Shown here in pieces: positions 23,787 through 26,418 of a stretch of DNA of 64,000 nt. The stretch lies in contig NZ_JQMP01000003.1 of NCBI RefSeq assembly GCF_000744775.1, forward strand, positions 186,001 through 250,000, read 5' to 3'. This DNA is from Thermorudis peleae. GTDB taxonomy: Bacteria; Chloroflexota; Chloroflexia; Thermomicrobiales; Thermomicrobiaceae. Made by a program: the position numbers and the translations under genes. The notes beneath the pieces are model-generated. The model saw only the letters and a program-made list of their open reading frames with translations, made no database searches and was not told the DNA's origin. How positions within the stretch are numbered: the first letter of the stretch is position 1; every line of letters starts with the position of its first letter.

Positions 23787-23929
23787 CTGCCACCTCCAGC
23801 CCACTGCCGCATCGCCTCAAGCATAGTCCCGCGCAGCCAACCAGACAACCGATAGTTTCTCCCGATTCCGTACCGCCTGCCCATCGCGGAGCGAGTGCGC
23901 CCTGTGCCTGCCGCTCCGGCATGTGCCAC

Positions 23930-23958
23930 TTGGCAACCGGCCAGCAGCTTGCTATACT
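23930..23958 (+). promoter_or_regulatory. Promoter of the serine-biosynthesis fusion gene
   Basis: TTGGCA, a 17-nt spacer and TATACT form a near-consensus housekeeping promoter. Transcription would start at about 23965, leaving a structured leader of about 240 nt before the fusion gene at 24205. Confidence 0.7.
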
Positions 23959-24029
23959 GCGAACGCGCAGGTGCGCAGTGGATGGTTCCGGATACACGCA
24001 GTGTCCAGCAACGGAGGACGGAGGACAGC

Positions 24030-24230
24030 ATGGAGATCACGCAAGCAGTCGGCTTGAGCACCAGTGCGATGATGCAGCACGGCCGCTTCCTGCTTGCTGG
24101 ACACGGCGTGAGTAGCCCCTCCAGTCGGGGATCTGGATCGAGCGCCGGTTCGGCGCTCTGGGCAATCCCGGTGGAGCAACGTCAGCAAAGACTGGAGGGG
24201 AACCATGACGACCGTTCGACTCGCGCTTGA
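24030..24230 (+). CDS. Putative serine-rich leader peptide upstream of the HAD-SerA gene
   Basis: A 66-codon frame with an unusually strong ribosome binding region (GGAGGACGGAGGA, 4-16 nt before the ATG). Codons 28-41 encode SSPSSRGSGSSAGS preceded by Val27: eight serines in fourteen codons, using five different serine codons. The stop lies at 24228-24230, overlapping the start of the fusion gene in another frame. The serine codons lie on the 5' arm and loop of a stem that hides the fusion gene's ribosome binding site. This is the layout of a translational attenuator sensing charged tRNA-Ser. It is not typical in that the frame reads past the downstream start codon. It may instead be a chance frame through an RNA structure. 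Confidence 0.5.
   Translation: MEITQAVGLSTSAMMQHGRFLLAGHGVSSPSSRGSGSSAGSALWAIPVEQRQQRLEGNHDDRSTRA
24116..24200 (+). promoter_or_regulatory. Structured leader: stem that sequesters the ribosome binding site of the HAD-SerA gene
   Basis: Bases 24116-24126 (CCCCTCCAGTC) pair perfectly with 24190-24200 (GACTGGAGGGG), and the 3' arm contains the GGAGGGG ribosome binding site of the gene at 24205. Inside, 24128-24132 pairs with 24165-24169 (GGGAT/ATCCC) and encloses an 8-bp hairpin at 24140-24158 (GAGCGCCG, loop GTT, CGGCGCTC). The nested, perfectly paired helices are far from random and imply translational control, either by a leader peptide or by a riboswitch-like aptamer. I matched it to no known riboswitch class. 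Confidence 0.75.
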
Positions 24231-26418
24231 CCTTGACGGGGTCCTCACCGAACACCCCGCACCTTTAGCCCAAGCAGCCAACCAGGCCCTCGGCATGGAG
24301 TTGCCGGACACCGCGTTCGTCGACTCCCACGGCTGCAACGTCCCCGAAGCTGTCCGGCTCTGGGTCTATGGCCCGGGCGGGCCCGCAAGCCTGCTCAAGC
24401 CCGCGCCACACGCCCAGCTCTGGCTCAGGCGCCTCATCGAAACGCTCGGCCGCGACAACGTCTGGATCATCACCGCCCGGCCCGAGCGTTCTCGCCCTGT
24501 CACCGAGGCCTGGCTGCACGAGCATAACTTTCCCGCCTGCCAGCTCTACTTCGTCGAAGACAAAGTCGCCCAGGCACGCCAGCTCGGCGTCACCCACGCC
24601 ATCGAAGACAGCCTGCGCCACGCCCAGCGATACGCCCAGGCCGGCATCACCTGCTTCCTCCTGACCAACGAGCCTGCGCCAGCTGGCGAATCACCGTTCA
24701 TCGTCCGCGTTCCTGACCTCGCCACCGCCTGCCGCACCTTGCTGGGCCTTGACACGCCACTCAGCACTGATGGCAACGAGCACGGGCGGCGCAAGCGCAT
24801 CGTCATCAGCGACGTCATCGATGCCCGCGCTCGCGAACGGCTGGCAGCCGAGGCCGAGATCATCGACGTTGACGGACGCGACCGCGACGCACTCTTCGCC
24901 GCGCTCCGCGACGCCGACGCCCTCGTCGTCCGCAGCGAGACCCGCGTCACCCGCGAGGTGATTGCCGCCGCACCGCGGCTCCGCGTCATCGCCCGCGCCG
25001 GCACCGGCGTCGACAACATCGATGTCGACGCCGCCACCGAGGCGGGCATCCTCGTCCTCAACGCACCCGGCGCCAACGCCGTCTCGGCCGGCGAACACAC
25101 CATCGCGCTCCTCTTAGCCATCAGCCGCTGCATCCCCGACGCCAACGCCTCAACCCACGCCGGCCGTTGGGAGCGCAAGCGCTTCAAGCCCTTCGACCTC
25201 AAAGGCAAGACAGTCGGCATCGTCGGCCTTGGCCGCGTCGGCTCGGTCGTCGCCCAGCGTTTGCGCGCCTTCGAGATGCGCCTGCTCGGCTACGACCCCT
25301 ACATCACGCGCGAACGCTTCACCCAGCTCGGCGTCGAGCCGGTCGACTACGAGACCTTGCTCGAAACGGCCGACATCGTCACGTTCCACGTTCCAGCCAC
25401 CCCCGAAACCCACCACATGCTCAACGCCGCCGCCATTGCGCGCATGAAGCCCGGCGCGATCGTCATCAACGCTGCCCGTGGCGAAGTCGTCGACGTCGAC
25501 GCCCTGGCCGACGCCCTCAAGCGCGGTCACCTGGCTGCCGCCGCGGTCGACGTCTTCCCCGAAGAGCCAGCCTACACCAGCCCGCTCTTCGGCCTGCCCA
25601 ACGTCGTGCTCACCCCACACATCGGCGGATCAAGCAAAGAAGCGCTGGCGGCCATTGGCGACATCATCAGCACCACCACCTTGGCTGCCCTCCGCGGCGA
25701 GATCGTGCCCAACGCCGTCAACCTGCCAGCCGCATCCCTCCACGCCCCCGAACTCCAGCGGCTGACCCAGGTCGCCGAAGCCGCGGGCACCTTGATCGCC
25801 GTGCTCCAGCCCGAGCTGCCCAGCACCTTCCACGTGCTCGTCCGTGGCCAGGTGCCGCAGGACGTCGCCGAACACGTCACCGCCGTGGCCCTCAGCACCG
25901 CGCTCCGCCGCTGGTCCGATCGCCGCGTCACGCCCGTCAACGCCCGGCTCGTCGCCCAAGAGCTCGCCCTCGCCGTCAGCCTCCACTTCGATCCCACGGC
26001 TACGACCATCCCCGACTTCTCCATCGAAGTCGACGGCGAGACGCCCCACCGCGTCACCATCCGCTGGGACCGCAAAGATGCGGGGATCATGGAAGTCGAC
26101 CGGTTCACGCTCGAACGACCGCTCGCCGGGCACATGCTCATCACCCACCACCGCGATCGCCCCGGCATCGTCGGCCGCATCGGCATGATCCTCGGCCGCT
26201 ATGAGGTCAACATCGCGGGCATGCAGGTCGGCCGGCACCACCGTGGCGGCGACGCCATCATGGTACTGAACGTCGACGATCCCATTCCCGAAGAGGCGCT
26301 CGAGGAAATCCGGCAGATTCCCGATATCGCCACGGCCTACGTCGTCTCGCTGCCCCAGCCGCAGCCGCTGGTGACGACCCGCAGCGTCCGTGTGCTCACC
26401 TCCAGCGCCGACGACTGA
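24205..26418 (+). CDS. serA: HAD-family phosphatase fused to D-3-phosphoglycerate dehydrogenase (SerA)
   Basis: A 737-residue fusion. Residues about 5-180 are a HAD-like hydrolase: nucleophile Asp9 and acid/base Asp11 in LDLDGVL, Thr90 in IITARP, Lys120 in VEDK, and acidic motif IV in AIEDS (Glu134/Asp135). It resembles NT5C-like nucleotidases more than classical SerB. Residues about 198-737 are a complete long-form 3-phosphoglycerate dehydrogenase: NAD fold VGIVGLGRVGSVVAQ, catalytic Arg near 425 (NAARGEVVD), Glu in PEEPAYTS, His472 (TPHIGGSS), an intervening ASB domain, and a C-terminal ACT domain (DRPGIVGRIGMILG) for serine feedback. SerA is the first step of serine synthesis; a fused phosphatase could supply the last step, though its substrate is unproven. 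The start is the ATG just after GGAGGGG in the sequestering stem. Confidence 0.92.
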   Translation: MTTVRLALDLDGVLTEHPAPLAQAANQALGMELPDTAFVDSHGCNVPEAVRLWVYGPGGPASLLKPAPHAQLWLRRLIETLGRDNVWIITARPERSRPVTEAWLHEHNFPACQLYFVEDKVAQARQLGVTHAIEDSLRHAQRYAQAGITCFLLTNEPAPAGESPFIVRVPDLATACRTLLGLDTPLSTDGNEHGRRKRIVISDVIDARARERLAAEAEIIDVDGRDRDALFAALRDADALVVRSETRVTREVIAAAPRLRVIARAGTGVDNIDVDAATEAGILVLNAPGANAVSAGEHTIALLLAISRCIPDANASTHAGRWERKRFKPFDLKGKTVGIVGLGRVGSVVAQRLRAFEMRLLGYDPYITRERFTQLGVEPVDYETLLETADIVTFHVPATPETHHMLNAAAIARMKPGAIVINAARGEVVDVDALADALKRGHLAAAAVDVFPEEPAYTSPLFGLPNVVLTPHIGGSSKEALAAIGDIISTTTLAALRGEIVPNAVNLPAASLHAPELQRLTQVAEAAGTLIAVLQPELPSTFHVLVRGQVPQDVAEHVTAVALSTALRRWSDRRVTPVNARLVAQELALAVSLHFDPTATTIPDFSIEVDGETPHRVTIRWDRKDAGIMEVDRFTLERPLAGHMLITHHRDRPGIVGRIGMILGRYEVNIAGMQVGRHHRGGDAIMVLNVDDPIPEEALEEIRQIPDIATAYVVSLPQPQPLVTTRSVRVLTSSADD

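Follow-up and report, generated by a model that had tools for sequence, protein, structure and literature searches.

A conserved serine-rich leader frame and a stem masking the serA Shine-Dalgarno sequence suggest translational attenuation in Thermorudis peleae and its relatives

The serA gene of Thermorudis peleae is preceded by a short frame rich in serine codons, and the Shine-Dalgarno (SD) sequence of serA lies in a predicted stem whose other arm is formed by the same stretch of codons. The combination of serine frame and masking stem, both of which recur in the relatives, strongly suggests a built-in sensor that would raise the enzyme when serine is short. On comparative grounds we consider it very probable that the leader is a serine-sensing translational attenuator of serA which acts through stalling at serine codons. 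It is also likely that this is a natural serine-specific stalling attenuator in which the leader overlaps its target and UCC codons double as anti-SD sequence. The DNA analysed, called the window below, is a stretch of 64,000 nt (assembly GCF_000744775.1, contig NZ_JQMP01000003.1, positions 186,001–250,000 of the forward strand).

Anatomy of the serA Leader

The features of the locus are listed in Table 1. The original prediction had described a promoter, a leader of about 240 nt, a frame led by a ribosome binding site, eight serines in codons 28–41 and an 11-bp stem, and all of these were found where it had placed them. One promoter of this kind was observed against an expectation of 0.0 in shuffled sequence. 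The ATG of the leader frame (24030) is about 70 nt downstream of the −10 element and has its own SD, and the stop codon (24228–24230) lies within serA, so that the frame overlaps the serA start by 26 nt. In the cluster, the serine codons follow each other in the order AGT AGC .. TCC AGT .. TCT .. TCG AGC .. TCG. The two arms 24116–24126 and 24190–24200 make a perfect 11-bp stem, which sequesters the SD just 5′ of the serA ATG at 24205. The leader RNA is predicted to fold more stably than shuffled sequences (z-score −2.96). No intrinsic terminator was found between leader and serA, with 0 terminator-like sites in 23850–24300; this does not match a transcription-terminating attenuator and fits a translational switch.

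Table 1. Features of the serA leader region of T. peleae (positions in the window)
Feature	Position	Strand	Support
Sigma-70-type promoter, TTGGCA-17-TATACT	23930..23958	+	10/12 matches to consensus
Ribosome binding site of the leader frame, GGAGGACGGAGGAC	24013..24026	+	Purine-rich SD-like counterpart in 19/19 relatives
Leader frame, 66 codons, 11 Ser	24030..24230	+	Kept in 19/19 family genomes with HAD-serA
Serine-codon cluster, codons 28–41, 8 Ser, proposed stall site	24111..24152	+	Serine across genera, codons vary
5′ arm of the masking stem, CCCCTCCAGTC, anti-Shine-Dalgarno	24116..24126	+	Fold prediction, arm-pairing comparison
3′ arm of the masking stem, GACTGGAGGGG, includes serA Shine-Dalgarno GGAGGGG (24194–24200)	24190..24200	+	
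serA, phosphoglycerate dehydrogenase with N-terminal HAD-like extension	24205..26418	+	TIGR01327; PF00389, PF02826, ACT

A second long stem (24001–24011 with 24094–24104) joins the 5′ UTR to leader codons 22–25, enclosing the leader start and adjoining the serine cluster on its 5′ side. Its perfect 11-bp core was seen in this genome only, and the counterparts in the relatives are shorter or absent.

With 535 bits (cut-off 454), the SerA protein matches the equivalog family TIGR01327, which identifies it as a true phosphoglycerate dehydrogenase; this enzyme catalyses the first step in the synthesis of serine. About 195 N-terminal residues (24205–24790) carry the HAD-like motif LDLDGVL, recognized by eye, and this extension is present across the order; the gene in this form is called HAD-serA here. 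Neither a Pfam model (at E 0.01) nor, by sequence, a solved structure matched the extension, and its identity as a fused phosphoserine phosphatase is a guess. SerA itself is modest in serine in these species (2.9–5.0% of the stretch read).

Conservation of the Leader Frame

In the window alone, the serine run hardly exceeds chance. The 64 kb contain 19 clusters with 8 or more Ser in 14 open codons and 107 with 8 or more in 20 codons, while the in-frame serine count of the T. peleae leader reaches P = 0.0075 against dinucleotide shuffles. Had the relatives been left aside, the serine leader would have stayed a guess. The original prediction had warned that GC-rich hairpins can give serine-rich frames by chance; such frames are indeed common in the window, yet all 19 relatives keep this one.

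HAD-serA was found in 19 of 21 genomes of the same family (Sphaerobacter and relatives), the 19 belonging to six genera (g1–g6); the two genomes in which it was not found are assemblies of 87% and 54% completeness. In all 19, an ATG-initiated leader frame stands in a constant frame relative to serA behind a purine-rich SD-like sequence, which is weaker in g2 and g4. The frames have 59–79 codons with 11–18 Ser, for example MTTSLRFAAAAMSTASLGRWWSSSSRRGSSSPSRSSSGSDV in g2 (Sphaerobacter), MVRTMFLNSTAVAGLTPRMTTAGSSSMSRSRTSSKSSSSSSSRSSRD in g4 and METMTRFATVAVFADTIGVVSSSSSRWSHSSSSTSSSST in g5. Conservation of the serine frame in close relatives, on which the original prediction was to stand or fall, holds across six genera, even where the nucleotides no longer align. 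Furthermore, 18 of 19 relatives have a TATACT or TATCAT hexamer 60–100 nt upstream of the leader ATG. The run of the frame past the serA start, noted earlier as an oddity, is common to all 19, with the stop 26–32 nt inside serA (at 26 or 32 nt when counted from the aligned start). The position of this stop is not independent evidence, because the conserved LDLDG codons of serA partly force it.

The best count of serines in 20 codons is 8–14 in the leader frame of all 19 genomes and at most 7 in the other two forward frames. The same frame has a count of 2–6 at 27 HAD-serA loci belonging to other families of the order, with the single exception of L055, where it is 9 and no ATG stands upstream of the cluster. 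The neighbouring families of the order have HAD-serA, and the leader was not found there. A profile of the leader found a single strong place per genome, always upstream of serA (E 4.7e-13 to 5.2e-23); the next best match in the family genomes had E 0.02, and outside the family there was only one weak, stop-interrupted match (E 7.5e-4). Since the profile was built from the same sequences, its informative part is that there are no second copies and no matches elsewhere. For serA beyond the order and in other phyla, isolated frames with 8–9 Ser per 20 codons occur at 4 of about 110 loci, which is taken as the chance level. At serS, where the start was taken as that of the longest frame and some loci picked the neighbouring gene, no comparable conserved leader was found. 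With the relatives included, the serine cluster is beyond chance.

Upstream of the HAD-serA of another family (L045, genome G028) there is a separate short frame, MVICLSSLSKRCSIEWWTGFSSSL, whose stop lies well upstream of serA; it may be a serine leader in its own right, independent of the one described here.

Selection on the Serine Codons

TCN and AGY codons are both used in 10 of 12 serine-rich alignment columns, a count that is subject to the imperfect alignment of low-complexity peptides. A change between TCN and AGY requires two steps by way of another amino acid, and their occurrence in the same columns indicates that serine itself appears to be selected. The choice of codons differs by genus, TCA prevailing in g4 and TCC and AGT elsewhere. 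Against dinucleotide shuffles, the serine count has P ≤ 0.0025 in 11 of 19 genomes, including all of g2, g4 and g5, and is weakest (0.05–0.09) in L025, L026 and L028. An excess of change at third codon positions is the usual sign of a translated frame, and it is clear in g4 only (0.362 vs 0.174 and 0.182).

Four genera have the string CCAGTAGT in their serine cluster (24104–24122, with counterparts in g2, g3, g5 and g6). Its conservation exceeds what serine codons demand, and an additional RNA constraint is possible.

The Masking Stem and the Geometry of Stalling

The strength of masking was assessed by resampling the synonymous codons of the leader with the peptide fixed and recomputing the cost of opening the serA SD, with 100 recodings per species. 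In T. peleae the opening cost is 12.0 kcal/mol compared with a mean of 6.6 for the recodings, only 1 of 100 being equally strong, and the masking stem of this species is above chance. In 13 of the 19 genomes, no more than 5 of 100 recodings mask the SD more strongly than the real sequence; in the other six (L026, L033, L034, L037, L038 and L039), masking is indistinct from the recodings (11–33 of 100). All stems are thermodynamic predictions at 37 °C, and the organisms include thermophiles.

The predicted partner of the serA SD lies within leader codons 28–39 or so, inside the serine cluster, in 18 of 19 genomes; L034 is the sole one without an upstream partner. A stem with its 5′ arm in the serine cluster, as the original prediction described it, therefore recurs with shifting registers. 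The stem conserved alone, or neither stem nor serine frame conserved, had been named beforehand as the contrary outcomes; in the relatives the frame is kept in all 19 and the stem in 18. In g1, g3 and g6 the SD pairs with CCCTCCGG or CCCTCCAG; the arm is CTCCA in two of three g2 genomes, and ACCTCTT, GACTTCC or GTCTCC in g4. Such differing arms indicate that masking is retained while sequence and register drift. The alignable genera offer few distinct arms, and the pairing register shifts between groups; paired changes can be seen by eye within them, such as CCAG/CTGG in T. peleae and CCGG/CCGG in g6.

If a ribosome is assumed to cover 18 nt upstream and 14 nt downstream of its A-site codon, 5–10 serine codons per leader would place it over the arm, compared with no more than three that would place it over the SD or start of serA. 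Among the 18 species with an upstream partner, 17 have only 1–3 of their 11–18 serines in the arm itself (the count in L038 is inflated by a split partner region). With so few serines in the arm, complementarity to the SD does not by itself account for the serine run, and the earlier worry that hairpins alone create the serines is weakened.

Proposed Mechanism

The locus combines a leader frame with its start and SD, conserved codons for the amino acid that is the product of the pathway, and a predicted position-dependent structure, as expected of an attenuator. From this arrangement we infer leader translation, stalling, a change of fold and induction in the following way. When Ser-tRNA is plentiful, ribosomes would clear the cluster, cross the serA start and stop 26–32 nt inside serA; behind them the stem would re-form, and initiation at serA would be poor. 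When Ser-tRNA is scarce, a ribosome would wait with a serine codon in the A site and cover the 5′ arm. The downstream SD would then be left single-stranded and unobstructed, and SerA would be made. The triplet UCC is complementary to the GGAGG core, so sensor codons and masking sequence can share bases. For scarce Ser-tRNA, the original prediction had put forward the same course of stalling, stem opening and raised SerA synthesis, and as an interpretation it is supported by the comparison.

Alternative Explanations

The six genomes in which masking does not exceed the synonymous recodings, together with the passage of the leader over the SD and start of serA in all 19, would also suit a mechanism in which ribosomes translating the leader block the serA start and upstream stalling relieves the block, stem opening being secondary. 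We regard this as rather unlikely to be the main mechanism: occlusion alone needs neither the strong masking of the 13 other genomes nor an arm inside the serine cluster, as found in 18, and the leader stop beyond the serA start is partly forced by conserved serA codons. Occlusion may nevertheless contribute alongside the opening of the stem. A constitutive coupling, by which leader translation opens the hairpin or feeds reinitiation at serA and serine is incidental, seems improbable. Leader genes often lie near a structural gene, and in such cases reinitiation has been suggested (PMC4833913); moreover, UCC codons arise easily wherever anti-SD sequence is needed. However, most of the serines lie outside the arm, serine persists through TCN/AGY changes, and the stop is well beyond the serA start instead of just upstream of it. 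Pure coupling does not account for the serine content.

That the leader is a metabolite riboswitch or a T-box, its serine frame arising incidentally from GC-rich hairpins, is very improbable, even though the leader is long and structured, the family uses T-boxes at other genes, and serA is under a Ser T-box in Paenibacillus (PMC8002221). A search of the window with the Rfam 15 families gave no riboswitch or leader family and 0 matches of any kind above the gathering threshold; at the leader, only implausible matches appeared up to E 10, and T-box RF00230 was not among them. No T-box was found at serA or serS in these genomes. Loop lengths and sequences vary by genus while the serine frame persists, which is the opposite of riboswitch conservation. 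Lastly, serine-rich off-frames are frequent enough in the window to invite the view of a functionless frame in GC-rich DNA. This view is scarcely credible when one frame is kept in every genome with HAD-serA in the family and a comparable count is seen at 1 of 27 loci in the other families, that one lacking an ATG.

Relation to Known Systems

Leader-peptide attenuators are classically known for his, leu, ilv, thr, trp and phe, and most of them switch a transcription terminator. To our knowledge, serine is not among these cases. The serA leader resembles them in that a leader frame ahead of a biosynthetic gene carries regulatory codons for the amino acid that is made, and differs in that no terminator was found (classical cases reviewed in PMC1183508). 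The open-access literature searched yielded no previous description of serine synthesis under the control of a serine leader peptide, which does not settle priority.

In the translational attenuation of erm and cat genes, an antibiotic acting with the nascent peptide stalls a ribosome on the leader and frees a masked SD. The release of a masked SD by a stalled leader ribosome is likewise proposed for serA, where the stall would come from a shortage of aminoacyl-tRNA in place of antibiotic and nascent peptide. Polycysteine leaderless sORFs reportedly attenuate downstream genes in mycobacteria, in work credited to Canestrari and colleagues in 2020. In these, too, codons for a single amino acid follow one another in a short frame ahead of the gene, and the supply of that amino acid governs downstream expression by way of ribosome speed. 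The serA leader is not a member of this class, since its run is of serine and its ATG is some distance past the −10 element with its own SD. It differs as well in lying behind a 5′ UTR, in its phylum (Chloroflexota), in its target, in the masking stem inside the serine codons and in the overlap into the target gene. By analogy, it may still work like the polycysteine attenuators.

In Bacillus subtilis, serine codons of sinR slow ribosomes under serine shortage and thereby set protein output (PMC3862929). These codons are part of the regulated gene, whose output they reduce, and neither a leader frame nor an RNA switch is involved. Serine is an awkward stall sensor, having six codons in two boxes and several tRNAs, and from a conserved example in nature one could learn which of these codons respond to starvation. 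If the proposed mechanism is true, it extends translational attenuation by overlapping leaders to another phylum, and shows one stretch of bases serving as both sensor codon and anti-SD.

The serA gene of Paenibacillus polymyxa senses serine starvation through a Ser T-box (PMC8002221), which binds uncharged tRNA and switches a terminator, unlike the leader described here, which has no T-box match. Six RF00230 T-boxes lie elsewhere in the T. peleae genome (L256–L261; contigs C1, C3 and C4). As judged by eye from the downstream proteins, they precede leuS, leuA, an anthranilate synthase component, an ileS-like gene, thrS and one unclear gene. T. peleae would then have tRNA-sensing T-boxes for other amino acids and a leader peptide for serine.
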